A DNA stretch of 64,000 nt, taken from Streptomonospora salina. Its GTDB lineage: Bacteria; Actinomycetota; Actinomycetes; Streptosporangiales; Streptosporangiaceae. Location: positions 682,001-746,000 of the forward strand of contig NZ_JACHLY010000001.1 in the NCBI RefSeq assembly GCF_014204715.1, in the 5' to 3' direction. Below, in pieces: positions 30,682-44,318 of the stretch (the first letter of the stretch is position 1; the number at the start of each line of letters is the position of its first letter). The notes under the pieces were generated by a model. The model was not told the DNA's origin. It did not search any database and saw only the letters and a program-made list of their open reading frames with translations. The translations under genes were made by a program, and so were the position numbers.

Positions 30682-32730
30682 TCAGCGCCCTCCTTGGGAG
30701 CGCCGGTCCAGCTCGGCCAGGTAGGCGTTGTAGGCGTCCATGTCGGCGTCGTCGGAGCCGTCGCGGCGGCTGTGGCGCTCCCGGCGGCGCTCGGTGCGCT
30801 CGTCGTCGACCCGCCATTGCCGGACCATGGCCAGCGTCACCAGGGCCGTGGGGATCTCGCCCACCGCCCAGGCGATGCCGCCGCCGGTGTACTGGTCGGC
30901 GCTCTGGCCGTCCAACCAGGGCACCTCGAACTGGCCGTAGTAGCCCATCGCCAGCGGGTCCGTCTGCATCATGATCGCGATACCGAAGAACGCGTGCACG
31001 CCCATCGCCACCAGCAGCAGCACCAGGCGCATCAGGTAGGGCAGTTTGCGCGGCCCCGGGTCCACGCCCACGATGATCCAGTAGTAGAGGAACCCCGTGA
31101 CCAGGAAGTGCACGTTCATCAGCAGGTGCCCGGTGTGGTCGTTCATCAGTGCCGGGAACAGCGGAGTGAAGTACAGCGCGTAGGGGCTGAGGACGAACAG
31201 CGGGGCCGCCACCGCCGGGTGGGTGGCCGCCCGGGAGAACCCGCTGTTGACGAAAGCGGTGAGCCATTCGCGCGGGCCGCGGTCGCCGCGGCGGTGCGCC
31301 GGGTGCAGCGCGCGCAGCGCCAGGGTGACCGGGGCCCCCAGCACCAGCAGGATCGGCACGAGCATGGACAGCACCATGTGCTGCACCATGTGCATGCTGA
31401 ACACCACCATGGAATAGGTGGCGACGCCGCTGAGCAGCATGGCCGCCAGAACCGCCAGGCCCGCCGCCCACGCGACCGTGCGGCCCCAGGGCCACCGGTC
31501 GCCGCGGCGCCGCAGGCGCACGACCCCTGCGGCGTAGCACCCGCCCAGCACCGCGATCACCAGGGCGAAGAACAGGTCGGGCCGCCACAGGGTGAGCAGG
31601 GTCTGCACGCTCACCGGAGGGGGCACGGCGAAGCCGAGGACCGCCTCGGCGGGCGTCGTCCCGCCCTCCTGGGGCGGAGGCGCCGTGCGGCTCAGCGCGG
31701 CGGCGATACCCATGGTGGCCGCCATGACGGCGATCTCCACCCCCGCCAACCGCACGAACAGCCGCCGCCCGCCGGTCTCGGCGATGCGGGGGACCGTCCT
31801 GCGGCGGTGCATCCAGCCGATCAGGCCCAGCACGAGGAACAGGGCCGTCTTGGCGACGACGATCCAGCCGTACGCGGTGGTGAACACGTCGGCCACCGTG
31901 TACATGCGGCTGGCGGCGCTGGCGACTCCGCCCGCGCCCACGCCGATGTAGGCCCACAGGGCGGCCCGGCTGAACCGCTCGGCGGCGACGGGGGCGTCCT
32001 CGGGTGCGGCGCGCAGGCCGTGGAAGGTCACCGCGGCCAGGCCGCCCACCCACAGCGACACCGCCACGACGTGCAGCGCCAGGCCCGTGACGGCCAGTTC
32101 GTGGCTGCCGGCCGAAGCGGCGTGGCCGGTCAGTGCCGGCGGCAGCAGGCCGGCGCCGGTCAGCACGAGCGGGGCGAAGGCGCCGGCGGCGCTTTCGGCG
32201 GTGCGGCACAGCAGCGCGACCGCGCAGGCCAGCAGGATCGTCGCGAGCAGCCCGATGCCCTGGGCCACCGAGACGGCGTAGCTGGTGAGCTGGTCGCCGA
32301 TGACGTCGCCGGGCGGCAGCCCGGATACGTCGGAGAGTTGGAACACGAGGGTGGCACCCGCGGCCGCGGCCCACACCAGCGCCGGCCAGGCGGCGGCGCG
32401 CAGGTACCCCAGCGCCTGCGGTCCCAGAGCACCGCTGCGCAGCGGCAGCAGGAACAGGGCGAGCACGATCGGTCCTGCGGTGAGGGCGGCTGCGACGTCG
32501 CGCACGGTCGTGGCCGCCGGCAGGCCCCAGCGTGTGAGGGGGCCGGCGTCGGGCAGTCCGGGAACCACCCGGGCGGTGACCGATCCCCCGGCCACGAGCG
32601 TCACGACGAGGGCGATCAGGCACGTGGCGACGGCGGCGACGGCGATGGTGGCGGCGGTGTCGCCGCCGGGGGCGCGCGCGGACGCGCCTTGGGCGGCGCC
32701 GCCGCTGCCGCGGACTCCGGGGGAATTCAC
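30682..32730 (-). CDS. CopD-CtaG fusion: copper resistance D domain with cytochrome c oxidase assembly factor domain
   Basis: 682 residues, about 15-16 transmembrane helices. The first half is CopD-like (PVAAERFSRAALWAYIGVGA, GWIVVAKTALFLVLGLIGWM), a family thought to move copper across the membrane. The second half is the caa3-type CtaG domain (FSMHMVQHMVLSMLVPILLV, GAPVTLALRAL, LMNVHFLVTGFLYYWIIVG, DPLAMGYYGQFEVPW), which helps insert copper in cytochrome oxidase. The many Met and His residues near helix ends fit copper binding. Such fusions are common in actinobacteria. ATG at 32730. A small membrane ORF starts 160 bases upstream in the same direction; no copper-sensor site is seen here. 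Confidence 0.92.
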   Translation of the reverse strand: MNSPGVRGSGGAAQGASARAPGGDTAATIAVAAVATCLIALVVTLVAGGSVTARVVPGLPDAGPLTRWGLPAATTVRDVAAALTAGPIVLALFLLPLRSGALGPQALGYLRAAAWPALVWAAAAGATLVFQLSDVSGLPPGDVIGDQLTSYAVSVAQGIGLLATILLACAVALLCRTAESAAGAFAPLVLTGAGLLPPALTGHAASAGSHELAVTGLALHVVAVSLWVGGLAAVTFHGLRAAPEDAPVAAERFSRAALWAYIGVGAGGVASAASRMYTVADVFTTAYGWIVVAKTALFLVLGLIGWMHRRRTVPRIAETGGRRLFVRLAGVEIAVMAATMGIAAALSRTAPPPQEGGTTPAEAVLGFAVPPPVSVQTLLTLWRPDLFFALVIAVLGGCYAAGVVRLRRRGDRWPWGRTVAWAAGLAVLAAMLLSGVATYSMVVFSMHMVQHMVLSMLVPILLVLGAPVTLALRALHPAHRRGDRGPREWLTAFVNSGFSRAATHPAVAAPLFVLSPYALYFTPLFPALMNDHTGHLLMNVHFLVTGFLYYWIIVGVDPGPRKLPYLMRLVLLLVAMGVHAFFGIAIMMQTDPLAMGYYGQFEVPWLDGQSADQYTGGGIAWAVGEIPTALVTLAMVRQWRVDDERTERRRERHSRRDGSDDADMDAYNAYLAELDRRSQGGR

Positions 32731-32761
32731 GGGGGCCGCTCCGTGGGGCAGGGGTGGACGG

Positions 32762-32890
32762 TCACTGGCGGTTGCGATGGCGCACCACCGCAGCGGCGGC
32801 GGCCGCGCCGACCAGGAGTCCGGCCGCGCCCTGCATCCAGGGGGCGAACCAGCCGGTCATCTCGGCGATGAGCACAACACCGACGTCCAC
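32762..32890 (-). CDS. Possible 42-residue single-span membrane protein
   Basis: From GTG 32890 the ORF reads MDVGVVLIAEMTGWFAPWMQ, then GAAGLLVGAAAAAAVV and a basic end RHRNRQ: one transmembrane helix with an inside-positive tail. It ends 31 bases before the CopD-CtaG gene, in the same direction, and an AT-rich promoter-like stretch (TAGTAGATTTATC) lies about 40 bases upstream of the start. I recognise no family. A shorter start at ATG 32860 is possible. Confidence 0.4.
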   Translation of the reverse strand: MDVGVVLIAEMTGWFAPWMQGAAGLLVGAAAAAAVVRHRNRQ

Positions 32891-33531
32891 GCGAACACCA
32901 CCACGAACCACGATAAATCTACTACAACCTGTCGGAGACACTTCCGGACCCCGGACCGGCGACCGGAGAACCGGCGCCGTACGGCGACGCCGGACGGACG
33001 GGGGCGCCCCAACCTCCGGCGCCCAGTGTCGCCCCGGAAGCCGTCGCGCACCAGCCCCCCGCGCGCAGCATGAGGCGCCCCGGGGTGCCCGTGCGGCGGG
33101 CCACCGCACGGGCTGCGGCTACGGGACCGCTCGGGGAGCGTAGGCGCGGGCGCGCCGTTCCCGATCCCCGAGCCAAGCACGCGAAACGGAATTTCCGGAG
33201 GGAACGCCCATTCCCCGAGCACGGACGCGCATCCCCGAACAGAAGATCGAAAACCCGTCCCATTCCACGCGGCACCGCTGCACTGCGCACGATCCGCCCC
33301 GCCTTTCCGCGTCCGGAGGCGGGGCGCCCGCATTCTTTCGCGGCGCGTTCACGCAGTCGGCCCCCGGTAGGGCGGTGTTCGCGGTACGGTCGGGAAATCG
33401 TTCCGCACCGGGGCCGAATCCGCCGGTCCGGCGGCGGCCGGGGCCGCGCCGGGGACGGAACTCCGATCGCGGGTGCGGGCGATTCCCGCGCTGCGTGCGA
33501 ATACCGCCATCAGCCACGGAGGGGATCGCGA
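32891..33531. other. Intergenic region without recognisable gene
   Basis: About 640 bases between divergent transcription units. It has an AT-rich patch near 32905-32935 (promoter for the leftward genes) and an otherwise uneventful GC-rich sequence. The ribosome site GGAGGGG for the next gene is at 33518-33524. No convincing ORF or repeat. Confidence 0.4.
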
Positions 33532-34851
33532 ATGCCCCAGTTCGACACCGTCGTCCGCTCGCGGCAGGTGGCCGCACCGGCCGGCGTCGCACCGGCATCG
33601 GTCTGCATCAGCGCGGGAAGCGTCGTCTCCGTCGGCGACTACCGGGCCTGCGTCACCGCCCAGCAGGACGTCGATCTGGGCGATACGGCCCTGCTGCCCG
33701 GCGGAGTCGACATCGACGCGGCCGTCCAGGAACCCGCGCAGGACCTCTCCGAGGGCTATGCGGCGACCGCGGCCGCCGCCGCACGCGCCGGCGTCACCAC
33801 CCTGGTGGTATCGGGGCCCTCCGTCCCGCCCCTGACCGACGAGGCGGGGCTGCACACCCACGCGACCGCGGCCGCGGACACCCGCGTACGCGTCGCGTTC
33901 CTCGGTGCGGTCACCGGCACCACCACGTGCGCCGATCTGGCCGAGCTGCGCGCGGCGGGGGCGGTGGGCTTCCACTGCTCCCTGTCCGACGGCGCCGGCC
34001 CGGCCTCCCGCCCCGTCGACGATGCGCGGCTGCGCAAGGCGATGCTGGAGCTGACCGCCCTGGACGCCCCGCTGGTGGCCCATTCGGAGGACGCCGCCGA
34101 GCTGTCCGAGCCGCAGCGGCCGGGCCTTTCGGCGATGCTGGAGGCCCGCCCGGCGCGAGCGGAGCGGCGCGGGGTGGAGCGGCTGGTCGCCGCGGCCCGC
34201 ATGGCCGGCACCCGCGTGCTCGTGTCTCCGTTCAGCGCCGCCGAGTGCGCGGCCGTGCTGGCCGCGGCCCGCGCCATGGGCGCGCCCGTCAGCGCCCAGA
34301 CCTGCCCGCACTACCTGTGCCTGCCCGCCGAACAAGTGCCCGACGATTCCCCCGCGCACACGTGCCGGCCGCCGCTGCGCAACGGCCACAACCGCAGTGC
34401 GCTGTGGAGCGCGCTGCTGGATCCCCACGACCCCGTGGTCACACAGGTCGGGTCGGGGCACCGGCCGGGTACCGGCGCCAGGACGGTGTCGTGGACGCTG
34501 CCGGCGCTGTGGACCGCCGCCCGGCGGCGCGGCTGCGACCTGGCCGACCTGGCGCGCTGGACCTCCGAGGCGCCGTCGCGATTCCTGGGCCTGGACCGCA
34601 GGGGCCGCATCGCGCCCGGCTGCGACGCCGACCTGGTGGCCTTCGACCCCGCGGCCGAGCAGGCGGTCCCGGCGGCCGACTCCGGCCCCTACGCCGGACG
34701 CACGCTGGCGGGCCGCGTGACGGGAACCTGGGTCGGGGGCCGCGGTGCGTCCGGGTGCGCACTGCCGGCCGCCCCGCGAAACCGGTCCGCGGTCGACGGC
34801 GGCGACCCGCTGCACACGGCACCGGACCCCACGGCGGTCCCGCCGCGCTGA
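33532..34851 (+). CDS. Allantoinase/dihydroorotase-like protein lacking catalytic metal ligands
   Basis: 439 residues aligned along the full length with allantoinases and dihydroorotases: LLPGGVDIDAAVQEPAQDLS, SEGYAATAAAAARAGVTTLV, LDAPLVAHSEDAAELSE, QTCPHYLCLPAEQVPDDS, CRPPLRN, RFLGLDRRGRIAPGCDADLV. The binuclear zinc centre is largely gone: the HxH pair is Asp62-Ala64, the carboxylated lysine is His148 (GFHCS for GFKCF), the second His is Pro233 and the Asp of SDH is Gly309 (GSGH). Only His184 remains. So hydrolysis is improbable and a scaffold or ligand-binding role is more likely. The frame is intact and has a strong ribosome site. It lies upstream of ald, with about 125 bases between. 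Confidence 0.8.
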   Translation: MPQFDTVVRSRQVAAPAGVAPASVCISAGSVVSVGDYRACVTAQQDVDLGDTALLPGGVDIDAAVQEPAQDLSEGYAATAAAAARAGVTTLVVSGPSVPPLTDEAGLHTHATAAADTRVRVAFLGAVTGTTTCADLAELRAAGAVGFHCSLSDGAGPASRPVDDARLRKAMLELTALDAPLVAHSEDAAELSEPQRPGLSAMLEARPARAERRGVERLVAAARMAGTRVLVSPFSAAECAAVLAAARAMGAPVSAQTCPHYLCLPAEQVPDDSPAHTCRPPLRNGHNRSALWSALLDPHDPVVTQVGSGHRPGTGARTVSWTLPALWTAARRRGCDLADLARWTSEAPSRFLGLDRRGRIAPGCDADLVAFDPAAEQAVPAADSGPYAGRTLAGRVTGTWVGGRGASGCALPAAPRNRSAVDGGDPLHTAPDPTAVPPR

Positions 34852-34864
34852 CCGGCCGCCCGGG

Positions 34865-34877
34865 TTACATCGTGTAA
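34865..34877. promoter_or_regulatory. Palindrome TTACA-TCG-TGTAA upstream of ald
   Basis: A perfect 5-bp inverted repeat with a 3-base centre, about 100 bases before the ald start, in an AT-rich patch. Its size suits a GntR- or Lrp-type regulator; which protein binds is unknown. Confidence 0.4.
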
Positions 34878-34976
34878 AGATGCCGCGACAACGAAAGCCA
34901 TGCTGGAAATGGCGGTTGCGGCACCGGGAACGCGAGAGTGAAGACGTGTGTCAATGACGATGCGAGGAGGAGCCCT

Positions 34977-36095
34977 GTGCGCGTCGGCGTACCCAGTGAA
35001 GTGAAGAACCACGAATACCGGGTGGCCATTACCCCCGCAGGCGTCCACGAACTGGTCGCCCGCGGCCATTCCGTCGCCGTCGAGCGCGGAGCGGGCGACG
35101 GGTCGTCCATCTCCGACGAGGAGTTCGCGGCGGCCGGTGCCCGCATCCTGGACTCGGCCGACGACGTGTGGGCCGAGGGCGATCTCGTCCTGAAGGTCAA
35201 GGAGCCGGTGGCCGAGGAGTACCACCGCATGCGCCCCGGCCAGACGCTGTTCACCTACCTGCACTTGGCGGCCTCGCGCGAGTGCACCGAGGCCCTGCTG
35301 GAGCGCGGTGTCACCGGTATCGCCTACGAGACGGTCCAGCTGATCGACGGCTCGCTGCCGCTACTGGCGCCGATGTCGGAGGTCGCGGGCCGGCTCGCCC
35401 CGCAGGCGGGCGCCTACACCCTGCAGCGTCCCAGCGGCGGCCGCGGCCGGCTGATGGGCGGCGTGCCGGGAGTGAGCCCGGCGCGGGTGACCGTCGTCGG
35501 CGCCGGGGTCGCCGGCCTCAACGCCACCCGCATCGCCGCGGGCATGGGCGCCGAGGTCACACTGCTCGACCTCAACGTGGCCAAGCTGCGCCACGCCGAC
35601 GACCTCTACCAGGGGCGGGTGCGCACCGTGGTCTCCAACGCTTTCGAGCTGGAGAGCGCCGTACTGGAGTCGGACCTGGTGATCGGCGCGGTGCTGATCC
35701 CCGGCGCCAAGGCCCCCAAGCTGGTGTCCAACGAACTGGTCTCCCGGATGCGAGCGGGGTCGGTGCTGGTGGACATCGCCATCGACCAGGGCGGCTGCTT
35801 CGCCGACTCCCGTCCCACCACCCACGACGACCCCAGCTTCGCCGTGCACGACAGCGTCTTCTACTGCGTCGCCAACATGCCCGGCGCGGTGCCCAACACC
35901 TCCACGCACGCGCTCACCAAGGAGACGCTGCGCTATGCGGCGGAGCTGGCCGGCAAAGGGTGGCGGCGCGCGCTGGCCGAGGACCCGGCCCTGGCCCACG
36001 GGCTGAACACCCATGACGGCGTGATCACCAACGAGGGGGTCGCCGAGGCGCACGGCTTGAAGTCGCGCACCGTCGCCGAGGCGCTCGAAGGCTGA
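34977..36095 (+). CDS. ald: Alanine dehydrogenase
   Basis: 372 residues. Catalyses NAD-dependent interconversion of L-alanine with pyruvate and ammonia. Family features: [20 protein letters not shown] (Arg15 and substrate Lys region), [10 protein letters not shown] with the pyruvate-binding lysine, TYLHLA with the catalytic histidine, the Rossmann motif [19 protein letters not shown], and [23 protein letters not shown] at 34977 has GAGGAGGA upstream; the ATG-like starts before it lack a ribosome site. In actinobacteria ald is often controlled by an Lrp-type AldR; none is in the window. A methyltransferase gene follows after 167 bases. Confidence 0.96.
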
Positions 36096-36262
36096 GCCCG
36101 CGGCGCGCGCTCCCCTGCCCGCCGCACCCGGGCAGGTCCGACGGTGTTGCCCGCACCGTCCAGCGGGCACCATCCCCGATAGCCCGGTGCCGCGTTCCGG
36201 CGGTGCGCGGCACCGCGGCGGCCGGGCGCGGACGCGGGAGGCACGCGGGAGGGAGGGCGGCG

Positions 36263-36859
36263 ATGGCGCGGCGGCTGTGGACCGGCGAACCGGTCGGCGC
36301 CAACCCGTTCGCACTGCCGCGCGGGCCCGCGGGCCTGGCCGCGGGCTGGATCCTGGCGCGCACCAACCGGCGGCAGCAGCACGAGGTGATCCGGGCACTG
36401 GCACCGGTCGCCGGCCGGCGCGTGCTGGAGGTCGGGTGCGGCCCCGGTGTGCTGATCGGGCTTGCCGCCGACGCCGGGGCGGAGGCGGTCGCCGGCGTCG
36501 ACCCTTCGCGGGAGATGGTGGCCATGGCCCGGCGCCGCAACGCCGCCGCGGTGCGCTCCGGCCGCGTGCGGCTGCACCGGGGCTCGGCCGCGGCGACCGG
36601 TGCGGCCGACGCGGAGTTCGACCTGGTGGTCACGGTCAACACGGTCGCGATGTGGCCGTTCCTGGACGACGGCGCCGCCGAATTGCACCGCGTCCTGCGG
36701 CCCGGCGGGCGCGCCGTCGTCTCCTGGCACGGCGCCCGTTCGCGGTTCGCGCTGAGGGCCGACGAGGACGCCGCCGTCGCCGCGGCCCTGCGGCGGCGCT
36801 TCGGCACGGTCCGGCGCCGGGAGACGGAGACCGCGGTGCTGTTCGAGGCGGCCACTTGA
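36263..36859 (+). CDS. Class I SAM-dependent methyltransferase
   Basis: 198 residues. SAM motif RVLEVGCGPGVLIGLAADAG, acidic end of strand two in VAGVDPSREMVAMARRRN, motif with FDLVVTVNTVAMWPFLDDG and post-motif LHRVLRPGGRAVVSWHGA. Of the UbiE/Methyltransf_11 type; the substrate cannot be told. ATG at 36263 has GGGAGGG. Its stop codon TGA (36857-36859) is also the first base triplet of the IS remnant boundary TGACTTCC, so the element inserted exactly at the 3' end of this gene. Confidence 0.85.
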   Translation: MARRLWTGEPVGANPFALPRGPAGLAAGWILARTNRRQQHEVIRALAPVAGRRVLEVGCGPGVLIGLAADAGAEAVAGVDPSREMVAMARRRNAAAVRSGRVRLHRGSAAATGAADAEFDLVVTVNTVAMWPFLDDGAAELHRVLRPGGRAVVSWHGARSRFALRADEDAAVAAALRRRFGTVRRRETETAVLFEAAT

Positions 36860-37477
36860 CTTCCTCTCCTTCCTGAAGGAGGGAGAGCCCGACCGTCCCC
36901 GACGGGGGACGGTCCCGCTCAGGCGGACTGCCTCACGGCAGCGGTTTCCTGCTTCGTCGCCGACCGCGGACGGGCGGACCCGTGCCGTCTCACATCGGCT
37001 CCCTCCCCTACTGTGCGAGCTCCGCAAGCCCCGCATATTCGCACAGCGGGGGCCCAGCGGGGCCCAGCGGGGCCCAGGCCCCGCCCGGGAGTCTCTCCCG
37101 GGCTGCGACTCGACCAGCCGCACCGATGTTCTTCGCCGCATTGAGGTCCCGATCGTGTCGGGCGCGGCAGGACGGGCACGTCCACCGGCGCGTGCCCAAG
37201 GACAGCGTGTCCAGCACGTGCCCGCAGTGCGAGCACGTCTTGCTGCCGGGATACCACCGGTCGACCACGATCAGGGTGCGCCCGTAGTGGCGGGCTTTGC
37301 ACTCCAGCTGGCGGCGGAACTCGCCCAACCCGGCGTCCAGTACCGACCGGTTGAGCCCGGCCTTCTGACGCACCCGCCTGCCCGGCGACTCGACGGTGCC
37401 CTGAACCGGGGGAAGCGCCGGTCGCCTGCCCGCATTTCCTCTCCGGCCACAAGGCCGGGGCATCCTCCCGGAAGTCA
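36857..37477 (-). mobile_element. Remnant of an IS200/IS605-family element
   Basis: A 621-bp segment bounded by TGACTTCC (36857-36864) and GGAAGTCA (37470-37477), which are exact inverted copies. Next to each border is a hairpin with a shared flank: CTCTCC-TTCC-TGAA-GGAGGGAGAG (36866-36889) and CTCCGGCC-ACAA-GGCCGGGG (37441-37460). Read leftwards, the hairpin near 36880 followed by GGAGAGGAAGTCA is the usual right end of actinobacterial IS605-type elements. It contains only the 3' third of tnpB and no tnpA, so it cannot move by itself. Confidence 0.7.
37008..37400 (-). pseudogene. tnpB, 5'-truncated
   Basis: The frame covers only the last 130 residues of a normally about 400-residue TnpB: GTVESPGRRVRQKAGLNRSV, LDAGLGEFRRQLECKARHYG, the zinc finger (CSHCGHVL and CPSCRA) and the last RuvC motif with its Asp in HDRDLNAAKNI. 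The first RuvC motifs are absent, so RNA-guided nickase activity is lost. The C-terminal tail (WAPLGPAGPPLCEY) comes from a 10-bp tandem repeat near 37044-37075 and differs from normal TnpB ends. No proper start codon or ribosome site is present. Confidence 0.8.
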
Positions 37478-37612
37478 CGTGAACGGGCGGTGCGCCGCCC
37501 CGCCCCGCTGGCAGCCTCGGCGGTGAGCGGATACGTTCGAATGGAGGCGGCCTGCCGAGGCAGGAAAGCCGCCGCCCCGCACCTACCCCGGCCGCATCGA
37601 GACGGAGCCCGC

Positions 37613-38737
37613 GTGTCACCCACCGAACCGGCCACCCTTGCCCGTGTCACGGGCATCGACGCCACCCTGGTCCGGTTGCCGCTGGTCCATCCCCGCTCCC
37701 GCGGCGCGGCCGAGGCCCGGCCGCAGTTCGCCCGCCACGCCCTGGTCCGGGTCCGCGACGAGTCCGGGAACACCGGGTGGGGCGAGGTTCCCGTGATCGA
37801 CGAGGAGCGCTGGCGCATGCTCGTCGACGACCACGCGCCGGCCCTGCTGCGCCACAGCTGGCACCGCCCCACCGAGGCCGCCGGCGCCTGGGCCGACCTG
37901 CCCCCGGCACCCTCTGTGGCGGCCGGGCTGGACGCGGCGTGCTGGGACCTGTGGAGCCGCCAGCGCGGGACACCGCTCTCCCACGCTCTGGGCGGCCACC
38001 GCACCGCCTTCACCGCCGGCGCCACGGTGGCCCGCCAGCCCTCCGCGGAGTCGCTGGTGCACGAGGTCAACCGGCAGGTGGGCAGCGGCTTCCGCCGGGT
38101 GCGGCTGGAGGTGGGGCCCGGATGGGACACCGACGTGGTGCACACCGTCCAGGAGACCTTCCCGCATCTGGTGCTGCAGGTCGACTGCGGCGGCCGCTAC
38201 ACCGAGGACCCCGCCGACGTGCGGGCGCTGCACGCGCTGGATTCCTACGGTCTGGTCGCCATCGAGGAACCGTTCGCCCGCGGCGACCTCGACGCCCATG
38301 CGCGGCTGCAGCGCGAACTGCGTACGTCCGTGGCGCTGAGCACCTCGATCGACTCGCTGGAGACCCTGGACCGCGCCGTCGCCGCCGAGGCGGCCGGCGC
38401 GCTGAGCCTGCGCATGAGCCTGCTGGGCGGGATCACTCCGGCGCGCCGCGCCCACGACCGCGCCGCCGACGCCGGTTGGGACGTGTGGTGCGGCTGGGAT
38501 GCCGAGTCGGGCGTGGGCCGGGCGGCCATCGCCGCGCTGGCATCGCTGCCGGGGGTTTCGCTGCCCAGCGAGATGCCGCCGGCGGGCGGCCACGTCACGC
38601 GCGAGACGGTGCGCCCGCCGGTGCGCGCGCACGACGGCATCACGCCCATTCCGCTGACGGTGCCGGGCCTGGGCTACGAGGTCGACACCCGGCAGGTGGC
38701 CGGCATGGCCCTCGACTCGGTGACTCTGGGGTCCTGA
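37613..38737 (+). CDS. Enolase-superfamily (NSAR/MenC-like) protein lacking catalytic lysines
   Basis: 374 residues that align from end to end with N-acylamino acid racemase/o-succinylbenzoate synthase: LVRVRDESGNTGWGEVPV, LDAACWDLWSRQRGTPLSHA, WCGWDAESGVGRAAIAALAS, TVPGLGYEVD. Key residues are altered: the KxK lysines are Arg164 and Glu166, the third metal ligand Asp is Ser243 (LSTSI in place of LDESI), and the lysine of NIKPGRVGG is Arg267 (SLRMSLLGG). Asp191 and Glu218 are kept. Racemase or synthase chemistry is therefore not expected. GTG at 37613 follows ACGGAG. It is the second TIM-barrel protein with a dismantled active site around ald. Confidence 0.8.
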   Translation: MSPTEPATLARVTGIDATLVRLPLVHPRSRGAAEARPQFARHALVRVRDESGNTGWGEVPVIDEERWRMLVDDHAPALLRHSWHRPTEAAGAWADLPPAPSVAAGLDAACWDLWSRQRGTPLSHALGGHRTAFTAGATVARQPSAESLVHEVNRQVGSGFRRVRLEVGPGWDTDVVHTVQETFPHLVLQVDCGGRYTEDPADVRALHALDSYGLVAIEEPFARGDLDAHARLQRELRTSVALSTSIDSLETLDRAVAAEAAGALSLRMSLLGGITPARRAHDRAADAGWDVWCGWDAESGVGRAAIAALASLPGVSLPSEMPPAGGHVTRETVRPPVRAHDGITPIPLTVPGLGYEVDTRQVAGMALDSVTLGS

Positions 38738-38832
38738 CCCCGCGGTTCTCCCCCCGGGCGCACCGCGCCGGCGGCGTCGGGGCGCCTCCGGCGGCCGCTC
38801 CGCGATTCCAGACGCCCCACCCACTCCCATAC

Positions 38833-38854
38833 CGAACGGTCGGTTCGCTAGAGT
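38833..38854 (+). promoter_or_regulatory. Promoter and operator-like repeat of the MaoC gene
   Basis: CGAAC-GGTCG-GTTCG (38833-38847) is a perfect 5-bp inverted repeat, followed two bases later by the -10 box TAGAGT (38849-38854). The repeat fills the -35/-10 spacer, as expected for a TetR-type repressor site. Confidence 0.5.
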
Positions 38855-38895
38855 CGGGGGAATCGTCAGTCCGGGCCAAAGGAGTGCACACGAAC

Positions 38896-39351
38896 ATGCG
38901 GACCTTCACCGACCTCGCCGAACTCGTCGCCGCCAAGGGCGAACACCTGGGCTACAGCGACTGGGTGACCGTCACCCAGGACTCCATCGACACCTTCGCC
39001 GACGCCACCGGCGACCACCAGTGGATCCACGTCGACCGGGAGAAGGCCGCCGCGGGCCCCTTCGGCGGGACCATCGCCCACGGGTTCCTCACCCTGTCGC
39101 TGCTGTCGGCGTTCAGCCCGATGGTGTGGCGGCTGGAGAAGCAGCCCTCCATGGCGATCAACTACGGCCTCAACCGGGTCCGCTTCCTGCAGCCGGTGCG
39201 CTCGGGCGCCCGCGTGCGCGACGGCATCCAACTCACCGACACCCGCGAAGTGAAGAACGGGATGCTGCTGACCTTCCAGCACACCGTCGAGATCGAGGGC
39301 GAGGAGCGCGACGCCCTCGCCGCCGAGGGCCTGTCCCTCATCGTCCCCTGA
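38896..39351 (+). CDS. MaoC-family (R)-specific enoyl-CoA hydratase
   Basis: 151 residues, a single hot-dog domain. The hydratase motif is ATGDHQWIHVDREKAAAGPF with the catalytic Asp and His, followed by GGTIAHGFLTLSLLS. The enzyme should add water to trans-2-enoyl-CoA to give (R)-3-hydroxyacyl-CoA in the cytosol. The C-terminal LNRVRFLQPVRSGARVR is the usual second-half signature (NRVRF..PV..G). It matches the NodN/Rv0130-like subgroup. ATG at 38896. Its promoter carries a TetR-type palindrome, which suggests control by an acyl-CoA-sensing repressor. Confidence 0.93.
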   Translation: MRTFTDLAELVAAKGEHLGYSDWVTVTQDSIDTFADATGDHQWIHVDREKAAAGPFGGTIAHGFLTLSLLSAFSPMVWRLEKQPSMAINYGLNRVRFLQPVRSGARVRDGIQLTDTREVKNGMLLTFQHTVEIEGEERDALAAEGLSLIVP

Positions 39352-39409: not shown

Positions 39410-41050
39410 TCAGCGCGTCAGCCGCTCGACCAGCCGCCGCGGCAGGCCGCGGCCGAGCCAGCGCAGCCGCCGCTCCAACCGGTCGGCGCGGGCGCGCTGC
39501 GCGTCGGCCTTCCGCTCGGCCGCGCGCAGCCGCGTACCCCAATCGCGGGGCGGCTCCTCGTCCTCGTCGCCGACGATGCCCGCCCCGCCGATCCAGTGCA
39601 GCCCGTAGAGCCGGTCGACCGCGGCGTCCAGTTCCTCCGGCCCGCCCTGGTCGGCACCCAGTCGGCGGGCGCGCATGAACGCCGCGGTGCGCTCCAGCCG
39701 AACCGGGCGCGGCCCGAAGGCGTCCACGCTCGGGTCCGTGAGGCGTACCAGGCCGACCCGGTGCTGGTCGGCGACCTCGGTGATGCGCTCCACGGCGCGC
39801 CGTGTCGGCGCGCAGCCGGCGGGCAGGTGCAGCCGGAACGGCACCGCGATATCGCGTTCTGGCTCCTCCTCCGCGAAGGAGACACGGCTGTCCCCGCGGA
39901 ACGCCTCCCGGATCAGCCGCAGGTCCAGCAGGTCCTCGTCCAGCGGGGAGCGCCGCTCCTCGCTCAGTGCCGACCAGGTTCCGACGACGCGGACACGGAT
40001 GTCGGGAACGGTTCCGGCCAGCAGCGGCGCGAGCGTGGTCTCGGCGTCCTCCAACGACGCCGCGCCGACGTCGACCACGACGTCGACGTAGGGCACCGCC
40101 CACTGCCGCGGACCCTGGTTGCGCCAGTCCCGGAAGTCGGGGACCCGCGTGGCGACGAACGGACGCCGGTAGCGGGCACCGGCCTCACGGCGGGTCTGCA
40201 TCTGGGTACGGCCCAAGTGCCAGCTGCTGCTGTCGAGGTCGGGGACGAACACCGCACCGGCCTGGGCCAGGCGGTAGGCGAACTCGGAGTCGCCGCCCAG
40301 CACCATCTCGCCCGCGAGCCCGCCGGCTTCGTCGAACAGGTCGCGGTGCAGCGAACCCGACGCGCCGATGAACACCGTATGGGCCCGATGGTCGGCCGCG
40401 GCCAGCGCCTCGGTGCGGTCGATCGTCCGCTCGATCCAGTGCTTCTCGGCGCTGCCGGCGTCGAACAGCTCGGCGGCGCGGCCCTCGGCGACGGCCGCGC
40501 GCACGCTTTCCGGATCCGGCTCGCCCGGGGTGAAGGGCACGAACAGCTTGTGACCCAGCACGGCCAGGTAGTCGGCGGCGTGGTGCCAGCGCAGCTGCGA
40601 CTCCACGTGCTCGCGGTAGACCAGCATGTCGGCGTCCAGCCGCAGCACCACATCGCCGTCGCCGGCCGCGGCGCCGCAGGTGACCGCGTGCGCCGATCCC
40701 CAACCGCCCTCATCGGAGGCGATCAGCCTCGTGTTCTCCGGGCGCGCCTCGGGCAGACGCAGCGGCGGCTCGCTGCCGTCGTCCACGACCACGGTCTCCA
40801 TCAAACGGGACGGATAGCTCTGCTCGGCCAGCGCCGCCAGCACCAGGTCGAGCTTGTCCTGGTGGCCGTGCGCGGGGACGATCACGCTCACGCTCAGGTG
40901 CGGCTCCCACTCCCCCAGACGCGGGATCTCCAGCGCCGTGTAGTCGTTGCGGCGGATCCAGGGCCGAGGCACTGCGGCGCCCCCGGACGCCCGCCCGGTG
41001 CTTTCCGGCTTCGTGCGGCCGCCTGCGGCGCCGCCGTCGACGATCGTCAC
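39410..41050 (-). CDS. GT2-family glycosyltransferase with C-terminal helical tail
   Basis: 546 residues. GT-A domain at about 50-300: SVSVIVPAHGHQDKLDLVLA, ETVVVDDGSEPP, DxD motif in VVLRLDADMLVYREHVESQL, and GGDSEFAYRLAQAGAVF for acceptor recognition. Residues 330-440 form a second, less conserved domain; the last 40 residues (RLRAAERKADAQRARADRLE) are a basic coiled coil that may bind the membrane or partners. GTG at 41050 overlaps the preceding stop by four bases (GTGA). It is the third gene of a leftward glycan operon. The sugar and acceptor are not readable. Confidence 0.85.
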   Translation of the reverse strand: MTIVDGGAAGGRTKPESTGRASGGAAVPRPWIRRNDYTALEIPRLGEWEPHLSVSVIVPAHGHQDKLDLVLAALAEQSYPSRLMETVVVDDGSEPPLRLPEARPENTRLIASDEGGWGSAHAVTCGAAAGDGDVVLRLDADMLVYREHVESQLRWHHAADYLAVLGHKLFVPFTPGEPDPESVRAAVAEGRAAELFDAGSAEKHWIERTIDRTEALAAADHRAHTVFIGASGSLHRDLFDEAGGLAGEMVLGGDSEFAYRLAQAGAVFVPDLDSSSWHLGRTQMQTRREAGARYRRPFVATRVPDFRDWRNQGPRQWAVPYVDVVVDVGAASLEDAETTLAPLLAGTVPDIRVRVVGTWSALSEERRSPLDEDLLDLRLIREAFRGDSRVSFAEEEPERDIAVPFRLHLPAGCAPTRRAVERITEVADQHRVGLVRLTDPSVDAFGPRPVRLERTAAFMRARRLGADQGGPEELDAAVDRLYGLHWIGGAGIVGDEDEEPPRDWGTRLRAAERKADAQRARADRLERRLRWLGRGLPRRLVERLTR

Positions 41051-43146
41051 ACTGCCTCGCTCTCTCTGTCGCCTCGGCTCCCGGCACCGCCTTCCGCGTC
41101 GCCTCCGCCCTCGCCGGCCGGCCCGGCCTGCTCCTCGGGCAGGCCCGCAGGTCGGCGCCCCGGCCACTGGCGCAGCGAGTTGCGCAGGAAGTACCCGTGG
41201 TGCTCGACCCACGTGTGGCCCGACGAACGGCGCCGGATCAGGTAGTTGTGCGCGTGGGTGCGGTAGATCCGCCCGCCGGAGCCGCGGACCGCGAGCAGCA
41301 GCTGGGTGTCCACGGCACGCGCCAGCGGACGGAATCCGCCGCACTCCTCCAGAACCACCCGGTCGGTCAGCAGGCTGCCGCCCGACACGTGGGGGATGAT
41401 CCGCTCCGACGCACCGGGGCGCCAGACCGTGCGGTCGATATCCTCCAGGTAGACGAACTCCGGGCCGCAGCCCACCACGTCGGCGGAGGCGTAGGTGCGG
41501 GCCAGCAGCAGGTCCGCGAGGTAGTCGGGACTGTAGAAGTCGTCGTCGTCCATTTTGGCGACGACGCTGCCGCGGGCGCGTGCGGCCGCCCGGTTGAGCA
41601 CCGCCCCGAACACGTCGTCCTGGTCGGCCTCGTACACGGTGATTTCGCGCCCGCCGGCGGCGAAGCGCTCGACGGCGCCGGCGACGCCGGGCGCGTCGGT
41701 GCCGAACCCGTGCAGCGCCAGCACCACCTCCAGCTCGACGCCGCGCTGGCGGCCGATCTGCTCCAGTGCGAATCCCACCAGTTCGGGGCGCCGGGTGCAC
41801 AGCAGCACCGACACCCGCGGCTCGGGCGCGGGCACCACCCCGGCGTGGGCGCCCAGGGTCCGCCAGCGCGCCGAGACCGAGTGCGTACGCAAGGCGCAGC
41901 GCCGCAGCGCGATGCTGTGGCGCTCACGGCACAGCTGGTCGGCGAGGTCCTCGGCGGTGACCGACGTCAGCAGCGTGCTGAGCTCGGCGCCCAACGGAGC
42001 GGCCCACGCGGGTGCTTCCTGCGTAGTGAAGAGCGGCACGCCTCCTGCCGCGAGGCCGGCGACGGCGCGCATGGCGGCCAACGGGCCGCTGTGGCCCGAC
42101 CACCCGAAGCGGACGGCGCGCAGGCCGCGCAACCGCGCCAGCTCGACCTCGGTGACCGCACCGGAGTCGGGAAGGCGCGCGACCACCTCGTTTCCGGCGA
42201 TGACGGCCGGGCGTCCGTCGCGCGCCACGAGGTCTCCCACACGCCGGCCCGCCTCGCCGACGAAGCCGACCGGGTTGACCACGCGCTCGTCGACCGGCGG
42301 CAGCTGCGCGGGCGCGCCCCGCCCCAGACTCGCGCGCCGGATGCGCCGGGGCCCTTCGGGGCCGCTGATGGCCGACCAGCTCAACTCGTCGGAGGCGGGC
42401 CGGTCCAGCGCCGGTACCTCGTCGTCCTCCCATCGGGGGTGCACCGCTCCGCCGACCCGCAGCGCCACGTCGGCCAGCGGTGTGGTCCGGTTGAGCGGTA
42501 CCGGACCTGCGGGCGCTGCGGCGACCGCCCGAGCCTGGCCGGGCAGCCACGACGGCGCGTCGGCTCCGCTCAGCGCGGCCGCCGGGGTCGGCGCCGGTCC
42601 CCGGGGCCTGCCGATCGCTCCGTCGGCCACCGCGTTCAGCGCCGGGCCGGGATCGACCGGTTCCAGGAAGTACAGTTCGCAGGCCCAGTGGCCGGCGGCG
42701 CCGAGCCGGCGCACGCGCGCCTCTTGCAGCTGCCGCCACTGGCCCAGCCCCGGAGCCGCGGGCAGCGGGGGCTCGTGGTGGGCCGCGGAACCGACGACCA
42801 CCACGACCTGGTGGGTGCGGGGCAACCGCGACCCCAGACTGACGGCGCGCCGCAGGTCGGCGACGGTGGCGGCGACGACGGCGACCACGCCGGCCGCGGG
42901 AGCGGATCCGGTCCCGCCCGGAGGTTCGGCCGCTGCGACGCCGGAAGGTGCGCTCACCGCGGCGTCCAGCAGCGGTCCGCCGTGCGCGGACGTGCGTTCC
43001 AGGTCGACCCGTCGGTCGCCGGACCGCAGCGCCACGGCGCCGAGTCCGCGCCCGGCGCCCTCGCCGATATGGCCGACCAGTGCCGGAGCGCCGCCGCACA
43101 GATGCAGCGCCCGGTCCAGCACCTCCTCGACCGGCTCCCCGGTCAC
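41047..43146 (-). CDS. Two-part glycosyltransferase (degenerate N-terminal half, GT2 C-terminal half)
   Basis: 699 residues. Residues about 425-660 are a GT-A (GT2) domain: PRVSVLLCTRRPELVGFALE, VYEADQDDVFGAVLNRAAA and the metal motif VVAKMDDDDFYSPDYLADL, then FVYLEDIDRTVWR. The first 420 residues show alternating strands and helices; AVRFGWSGHSGPLAAMRAVA and GGVPLFTTQEAPAWAAPLGA recall the end of a GT-B (GT4-like) domain, but no firm assignment is possible. Start GTG overlaps the previous stop by four bases. The last 40 residues are Gly/Glu-rich and disordered. Likely makes or modifies a surface polymer with its neighbours. Confidence 0.75.
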   Translation of the reverse strand: MTGEPVEEVLDRALHLCGGAPALVGHIGEGAGRGLGAVALRSGDRRVDLERTSAHGGPLLDAAVSAPSGVAAAEPPGGTGSAPAAGVVAVVAATVADLRRAVSLGSRLPRTHQVVVVVGSAAHHEPPLPAAPGLGQWRQLQEARVRRLGAAGHWACELYFLEPVDPGPALNAVADGAIGRPRGPAPTPAAALSGADAPSWLPGQARAVAAAPAGPVPLNRTTPLADVALRVGGAVHPRWEDDEVPALDRPASDELSWSAISGPEGPRRIRRASLGRGAPAQLPPVDERVVNPVGFVGEAGRRVGDLVARDGRPAVIAGNEVVARLPDSGAVTEVELARLRGLRAVRFGWSGHSGPLAAMRAVAGLAAGGVPLFTTQEAPAWAAPLGAELSTLLTSVTAEDLADQLCRERHSIALRRCALRTHSVSARWRTLGAHAGVVPAPEPRVSVLLCTRRPELVGFALEQIGRQRGVELEVVLALHGFGTDAPGVAGAVERFAAGGREITVYEADQDDVFGAVLNRAAARARGSVVAKMDDDDFYSPDYLADLLLARTYASADVVGCGPEFVYLEDIDRTVWRPGASERIIPHVSGGSLLTDRVVLEECGGFRPLARAVDTQLLLAVRGSGGRIYRTHAHNYLIRRRSSGHTWVEHHGYFLRNSLRQWPGRRPAGLPEEQAGPAGEGGGDAEGGAGSRGDRESEAV

Positions 43147-44318
43147 AGCGCCTTCCTGGTGAAGACGCGGGCGCCCTTCTCGGTCTGCTCCTCCTCCACG
43201 CTGAGCTCGGGGAACTCCTCAAGCCAGCGCTCCTCGACCGCGCGTTCGTCGGGGCGGTCGGCGTCGTCGAGCACGAAGACCGCGTCCGAAGCGCACCGGG
43301 GAATCAGAACGGGCAGAGCGGGATAGCGCGCCTGCTCGGCGGTACTGCCGGGCGGCCCGTCGACGAAGACCAGGCCGATGTCGTGCAGGTCCGCCACGGC
43401 CGCGGCGTCGTACCAGGGCCGGTCGGCCTCGTCGGCGTCCCCGTCCGCTCCGGAGTCGGGGCTCCATTCGGTCAGGGGCGCGTCGCGGATCTCCACGATG
43501 TCGTCGAGCCCGTGGTCGCGCACCAGCCGGCGCGACCGCTCGGCGTAGTACCCGCTGTGCTCCAGCGCGACCAGGCGCCCCCGGCCGGCACGGCGCAGCG
43601 CATACCCCAGCCACACGCTGGAGGCGCCGCTGCCGCATTCGACCACCAGATCCGGCCCGTGCCGGTCGACGAGGCGCACCACCACCCGCATCACGTCGGG
43701 TGACGCGGCCCAGCCGCGCAGCGGGGGCATGAAGGCGGCCGCGCCGAGGTGGTCGCGCAGCTCGGCCCAGGCCACCTGCTGTTCGTAGTCGTTGCGGCCC
43801 TGTACGGCGACCGAGCGGGACAGTTCCGCCGACATCTCCGGAAGGACCCGGGCGCGCATCCGCTTGAGCTCGTTGCGGGTGCTGCCGAGGGTCTTGACCG
43901 TCTCAAGGCGGTCGGCTTCGACGGTCTCGACGACCTTGCGCCCGTTGGCGTCGACGCGCCGATCGATCTCCTTGAGCTCCTCGCGGGCGCTGTCCAGCGC
44001 CGTGACCATCTCCAGGCGGTCGGCTCCGACGGCCTCCACCACCGTGCGCCCTTGGGCGTCGACCCGCCGGTCGATGTCCTTGACCTTGCGGCTGACCGCG
44101 CCCACCCGGCGGACCAGAACCACCGCGAGCAGCGCGTTGGCCGCAGCGGCGGCGCCGACGGCGCCGGTCGCCGCCAGCAGCAGGGCGCCCTCCCACGAGA
44201 GCGCTCCCGAGCTCGCCAGTGCCGCGATCCCGGCCAGTCCGGCGAGTCCGACCGCTCCGGCCGGCACGGCGACCGCCAGGTACTTCCGGCGGGATCGCAG
44301 AAGGCGCAGGAACCGCAT
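43143..44318 (-). CDS. Membrane coiled-coil protein with C-terminal methyltransferase-like domain
   Basis: 391 residues: two N-terminal transmembrane helices (KYLAVAVPAGAVGLAGLAGI and WEGALLLAATGAVGAAAAAN), then two tandem ~35-residue repeats (DIDRRVDAQGRTVVEAVGAD and EIDRRVDANGRKVVETVEAD) that form a coiled coil, then a class I SAM-methyltransferase-like domain (LVVECGSGASSVWLGYALRR, LVALEHSGYYAERSRRLV, GLVFVDGPPGSTAEQARYPA). This FkbM/TylF-like domain is common beside polysaccharide glycosyltransferases. ATG at 44318 has GGAGGT. It heads a three-gene operon, coupled by overlapping stops and starts. Whether it methylates a sugar or only organises the enzymes at the membrane is open. Confidence 0.8.
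   Translation of the reverse strand: MRFLRLLRSRRKYLAVAVPAGAVGLAGLAGIAALASSGALSWEGALLLAATGAVGAAAAANALLAVVLVRRVGAVSRKVKDIDRRVDAQGRTVVEAVGADRLEMVTALDSAREELKEIDRRVDANGRKVVETVEADRLETVKTLGSTRNELKRMRARVLPEMSAELSRSVAVQGRNDYEQQVAWAELRDHLGAAAFMPPLRGWAASPDVMRVVVRLVDRHGPDLVVECGSGASSVWLGYALRRAGRGRLVALEHSGYYAERSRRLVRDHGLDDIVEIRDAPLTEWSPDSGADGDADEADRPWYDAAAVADLHDIGLVFVDGPPGSTAEQARYPALPVLIPRCASDAVFVLDDADRPDERAVEERWLEEFPELSVEEEQTEKGARVFTRKAL

Follow-up and report, generated by a model that had tools for sequence, protein, structure and literature searches.

An allantoinase-like protein is maintained by selection in a group of related actinobacteria, where its present task is probably to bind something and no longer to degrade allantoin. 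In the window, the stretch of 64,000 nucleotides of Streptomonospora salina DNA analysed here, it is encoded on the forward strand at 33,532–34,851, and its product has the allantoinase fold by profile, structure and alignment matches but has lost five of the six metal ligands. We lean towards reading this pseudo-allantoinase as a lineage-wide pseudoenzyme that is derived from an allantoinase, is now non-hydrolytic and acts by binding, most likely to a protein. Cyclic amidohydrolase pseudoenzymes are already known among the dihydroorotases and dihydropyrimidinases; our literature search found no example derived from an allantoinase, nor any relevant paper on allantoinase in Thermobifida or Nocardiopsis, and judging from its sequence the window protein would add the allantoinases as a new branch for such proteins. 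Where the gene is annotated as an allantoinase, allantoin breakdown could be predicted wrongly; a case in point are the 12 genomes that have the gene but neither urate oxidase nor a second allantoinase match at 1e-60. How an enzyme turns into a non-enzyme can be tested directly here, because the protein has a single origin on the tree, an intact relative in the apparent ancestral slot and the variation of about 70 genomes.

The translation runs over 439 residues without a stop, and GGAGGGG precedes its ATG. Residues 5–404 match the allantoinase profile TIGR03178 (7e-73), at 245.9 bits and thus below the equivalog cut-off of 357.85 bits, and the best sequence matches among solved proteins are the allantoinases 3e74, 8hfd and 3hm7. 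The metal ligands of Escherichia coli AllB are reported as H59, H61, Kcx146, H186, H242 and D315 (PMC9863593), and in the alignment their counterparts in the window protein are D62, A64, H148, H184, P233 and G309, so that His184 (34,081–34,083) is the sole ligand kept. The former HxH motif (residues 62–64, 33,715–33,723) reads D-A-A, the former carboxylated lysine is a histidine (residue 148, 33,973–33,975), a former histidine ligand is a proline (residue 233, 34,228–34,230) and the former aspartate is a glycine (residue 309, 34,456–34,458), all on the forward strand. A loop of 13–16 residues that follows the aspartate in intact relatives is absent as well. The structure model has the barrel and beta-sandwich of an allantoinase; the six-ligand binuclear metal centre is absent. 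The original prediction, that five of six ligands are replaced while fold and frame are well kept, is borne out in both parts, with the frame open throughout and a structure model that matches allantoinases at a TM score of 0.85.

The same loss runs through a whole lineage. Across 341 genomes of the family the HMM scores are bimodal, with 68 places scoring at least 453 bits and the next one down at 402, and the 68 genomes with the pseudo-allantoinase thus stand at a clearly separate score level. Two partial cases, one frameshifted and seen as two adjacent matches (G011, locus L081) and one truncated where contig C10 begins (G144), bring the count to 70 genomes in 16 genus groups, with named members in Nocardiopsis, Streptomonospora, Thermobifida, Marinactinospora, Murinocardiopsis, Allosalinactinospora, Actinorugispora and Marinitenerispora. 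A search of 394 genomes sampled across the class, covering matches of 1e-112 or better, gave scores at this level in 21 genomes, all of the same family, and 380–390 bits in two further ones (G010, whose locus L015 is intact, and G239). All 60 relatives searched gave some allantoinase-like match; in a first ligand comparison, 29 of 30 best loci were read (the fragment L030 was left out), and 12 of them, the window genome included, were dismantled and 17 intact.

For the lineage alignment we left out a contig-edge fragment (L082), two broken frames (L077 and L081) and distant Azospirillum matches (L084–L087), which served only as outgroup (the tree contains L084 and L086). None of the 51 aligned members has any of the five ligands, whereas each of the 25 intact relatives has the full six, and the identical loss in every member excludes chance or sequencing error. 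At position 62 the members have G (28), D (22) or N (1), at position 64 G (33), A (14), V (3) or T (1), and at position 148 H (20), Q (19), A (6), S (3) or R (3); position 233 is P in 49, with one A and one S, and positions 184 and 309 are invariably H and G. Because positions 62, 64 and 148 drift in the kind of residue among the 51 members, there is no conserved replacement metal site, and this candidate was rejected. Of the 126 columns that do not vary in the intact set, the lineage keeps 63, has changed 43 and partly keeps 20. The search for orthologues with the same substitutions, which the original prediction proposed, led to 51 aligned members that all lack the same five ligands; intact orthologues, which it took to speak against an inactive protein, are represented by one syntenic homologue (L089), set against a lineage that is dismantled in every aligned member.

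The pseudo-allantoinase descends from the allantoinases of the family through a single loss of the five ligands and the loop. In a tree of the window protein and 18 of the 50 open loci (L027 was left out as the same gene as L089), these 19 members form one clade (support 100/100) that branches from within the AllB proteins of the family on a stem of 1.04 changes per column, and the second, intact AllB of six lineage genomes falls into a different clade. The closest intact proteins by the tree are L013, L014, L016 and L090 (96/89); the genome that L013 comes from, G007, has its alanine dehydrogenase gene (ald) on another contig. One genome of a sister genus (G031, L088/L089, contig C356) has an intact allantoinase in the slot between ctaG and ald, where it lies inside a urate-degradation cluster, although the tree sets it immediately outside the intact proteins closest to the lineage (88/94 and 96/89). 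The cluster begins with a 423-residue open reading frame without a family match, uraD, a 109-residue open reading frame and uox, and continues with xdhB-like and xdhC-like genes (names given by best matches below their own cut-offs), an 8-oxoguanine deaminase gene, an xdhA-type gene, intact allB (555 bits) and an allantoicase gene. The slot is flanked in this genome also by homologues of the two window genes upstream of it, presumably sbcD and sbcC, and a homologue of the o-succinylbenzoate synthase (OSBS)-like gene is found some 8.5 kb beyond ald. Between ctaG and ald, the allB-derived gene is the only one that occurs regularly in the lineage. Since the slot in G031 holds an intact allantoinase within such a cluster, the pseudo-allantoinase looks like an exapted relic of a cluster of this kind; on the evidence of this one genome, an ancestor that was part of a urate-degradation cluster in the ctaG–ald slot is well indicated, and the simplest reading is that the cluster was lost and one gene exapted. 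The five metal ligands and the loop were lost a single time, at the root of the Nocardiopsis–Thermobifida–Streptomonospora lineage, and the ancestral cluster would have shrunk to one gene.

On the left of the slot lies a gene on the reverse strand for what we take, by name, to be a CtaG-like membrane protein (30,682–32,730), which is present in 53 of 53 rows of the synteny tables (the window and 52 loci; L082 was left out), and on the right lies ald on the forward strand (34,977–36,095), identified by an HMM match and with a GTG start conserved in relatives. Further along the forward strand, an OSBS/N-acylamino acid racemase-like protein of the enolase superfamily (37,613–38,737) is syntenic in 52 of 53 rows and a presumed MaoC-like dehydratase, which matches the C-terminal part of PaaZ (38,884–39,351), in 50 of 53. 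The gene next downstream of the pseudo-allantoinase is ald in 51 of 53 rows (L077 is truncated, and in L081 the upstream gene is broken), at gaps of 34–283 bp, or 631 bp in L077. In L077, from Nocardiopsis eucommiae, pseudo-allantoinase and ald are both interrupted, which suggests assembly errors and not real gene loss. An Rfam scan of 32,700–38,900 gave no match at the gathering score, and a promoter and terminator scan of 32,600–35,200 gave no sigma-70-like and two terminator-like sites.

The structure prediction that had been proposed as a check returned an allantoinase fold (monomer model, pLDDT 87.4, pTM 0.87), with the allantoinases 3hm7, 8hfd and 3e74 as the best structural matches (TM 0.80–0.85), followed by an L-hydantoinase, dihydroorotases and CRMPs. 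Constraint was compared between 19 lineage rows and 17 intact rows (mean identity 64% versus 61%; left out were L015, a near copy of L092, L090 and six second-type AllB), in a test that ignores correlation between neighbouring sites. Constraint was gained most strongly in a helix of residues 209–223 (RAERRGVERLVAAAR; 34,156–34,200, forward strand), where the entropy is 0.22 in the lineage versus 1.43 in the intact proteins and 0 of 2,000 site shuffles were as extreme. Residues 233–247 gained constraint less strongly (p 0.01), and the old-loop windows 67–81 and 297–311 are less constrained, a trend that stays within the site shuffle (p 0.14 or more). The helix has a z of −4.9, versus −2.4 to −3.0 in three intact-group comparisons; in eight subsamples, each of 6 or 8 members, z ranged from −3.7 to −5.1, with the peak at residue 203 in two of them, and the peak of the full set is the same when the second-type AllB rows are added back. 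Part of the helix, RPPRAERR, is already found in the closest intact allantoinases. In the model, the two segments comprise two helices and, between these, the end of a strand; from the barrel fold they are expected to face outward, and the barrel face around residues 206–247 would then be a protein-contact face. Without its metals the protein would no longer hydrolyse allantoin by the binuclear metal mechanism, and we infer that it would now bind another molecule, most likely a protein, through this face. Such a role fits the intact enzyme, because E. coli AllB is reported to bind the transporter AllW and the kinase GlxK (PMC10163214). The former pocket keeps the conserved polar residues H184, E186, D187, H260 and S308, and nearly H310, and from the sequence may still bind a ligand or support metal-free chemistry. 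More tentatively, the function gained after the cluster was deleted, and fixed lineage-wide, might be that of a partner-binding hub on the helix 206–247 face or of a sensor or non-metal enzyme in the pocket.

Compared with AllB (TIGR03178; E. coli 3e74/8hfd), the window protein has the same fold, length, overall sequence and ancestry, and the syntenic homologue in G031 is intact; it differs in the five ligands and the one loop that it lacks, in its score below the equivalog level and in having no purine genes beside it. The pseudo-dihydroorotase (pDHO) of Pseudomonas aspartate transcarbamoylase (ATCase) likewise has a cyclic amidohydrolase fold that is kept while the zinc ligands are lost, and the absence of catalysis would be common to both. 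Adjacency to pyrB, which marks pDHO, is not seen: the window gene lies at 715,532 of contig C1 of its genome (G000), and what we take to be the pyrimidine-type cluster, including a separate pyrC-like gene, lies within 588,000–605,000. The CRMP/dihydropyrimidinase-related proteins have lost metal ligands too and are among the structural matches of the window model, but they are animal proteins of the dihydropyrimidinase branch, with an origin separate from that of an allantoinase-branch pseudoenzyme. Both are reported as inactive relatives that act in complexes: pDHO forms the Pseudomonas ATCase dodecamer (PMC7053772), and the CRMPs oligomerise, CRMP-4 keeping two of six metal ligands (PMC4051505). 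In the AllB–AllW and AllB–GlxK pairs of E. coli, an allantoinase stabilises or is regulated by its partners (PMC10163214), although this enzyme is active and stands inside the allantoin pathway. The interpretation originally drawn from inactive dihydroorotase subunits that stabilise partner enzymes is probably right in kind, with ligands lost and fold kept, and is partly contradicted as to the partner, since the case for Ald is weakened.

Were the gene a decaying pseudogene, kept only by the conserved chromosomal order, broken frames and a dN/dS near 1 would be expected. Nothing else of the presumed old cluster is left, L081 is frameshifted and L077 interrupted, and in six genomes compared for both proteins the pseudo-allantoinase has evolved faster than intact AllB (mean identity 62% versus 73%). 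However, frames of at least 400 residues are open in 50 of 53 lineage loci (L082 being a contig-edge fragment), the L077 assembly has ald split as well, and 126 of the 439 columns are at least 95% conserved in the lineage. By the Nei–Gojobori method (NG86), 20 pairs of our own choosing gave a median dN/dS of 0.24 (range 0.13–0.41), and the neighbours gave 0.27 (ctaG), 0.23 (OSBS), 0.22 (MaoC-like) and 0.165 (ald, 19 pairs); with very GC-rich codons, this comparison with the neighbours counts most. In the window's genus both values for the gene (0.34 and 0.41) lie above the range of its four neighbours (0.15–0.32), so that constraint may be weaker there. On the 20 pairs tested, the lineage has been under purifying selection since the ligands were lost; a recent pseudogene was rejected on the open frames and dN/dS, with a reservation for the window's genus, and decay is highly improbable. 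The original claim of conservation without catalysis is strongly supported as far as the dismantled metal centre and dN/dS are concerned, and the structural or regulatory role it deduced is the best inference. A different use of the fold, as a metal-independent enzyme or small-molecule sensor in the remodelled former active-site pocket, would account for the polar residues retained there and for 16 lineage-specific conserved residues, including H110, S150, K169, C263 and R279, and cavities are reported to persist in CRMPs (PMC4051505). We consider it unlikely, given the drift at the three former ligand positions, a mean entropy of 1.11 in loop I (residues 58–70) versus 0.16 in intact enzymes, and the lower model confidence in blocks 151–160, 271–280 and 311–320.

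The fixed order and strand with ald would fit a structural or regulatory partnership with the neighbouring alanine dehydrogenase, like that of pDHO with ATCase. Against this, two of the 70 lineage genomes (G015 and G345) keep the gene without an ald match at 1e-60, and at their loci (L080 and L044) ald is missing between an open pseudo-allantoinase and the OSBS-like gene, while ald is present in 58 of 60 relatives, and most of these lack the pseudo-allantoinase. Furthermore, the intact cluster of G031 already adjoins ald, with allantoicase as the upstream gene, and a TTACA-N3-TGTAA element before ald (34,865–34,877, forward strand) has a similar TTACA...TGTCA counterpart before ald in G031. 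By regular expression, TTACA...TGT occurs in 31 of 49 lineage intergenic regions upstream of ald, and its presence in G031 too indicates that it probably serves ald regulation. A partnership with Ald is weakened by these observations and seems quite unlikely. An auxiliary subunit of a second, intact allantoinase or of urate metabolism would fit the 57 of 70 lineage genomes with urate oxidase and the second allantoinase-like match in most genomes, but among the 13 without urate oxidase, which include the window genome, 12 keep the gene at full score and have no second match at 1e-60, and in the thirteenth, G011, it is frameshifted; this reading is very unlikely. As neither ald nor urate breakdown is required, neither alanine dehydrogenase nor allantoin breakdown explains the gene, and the partner of a binding pseudo-allantoinase is probably neither Ald nor a urate-pathway enzyme.

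Some features of the surroundings may be noted separately. The stretch upstream of ald (34,865–34,963) holds a GTATC-N-GATAC-like inverted repeat together with TTACA-N-TGT(A/C)A in many members. Past the syntenic genes, 39,410–44,318 carries three consecutive reverse-strand genes (about 546, 699 and 391 residues), the first two presumably glycosyltransferase-like; some of the related loci carry homologues of them. The slot genes of L051, labelled Glycomyces fuscus, are 93–97% identical to those of Nocardiopsis alborubida (L054), and its organism label may therefore be wrong.
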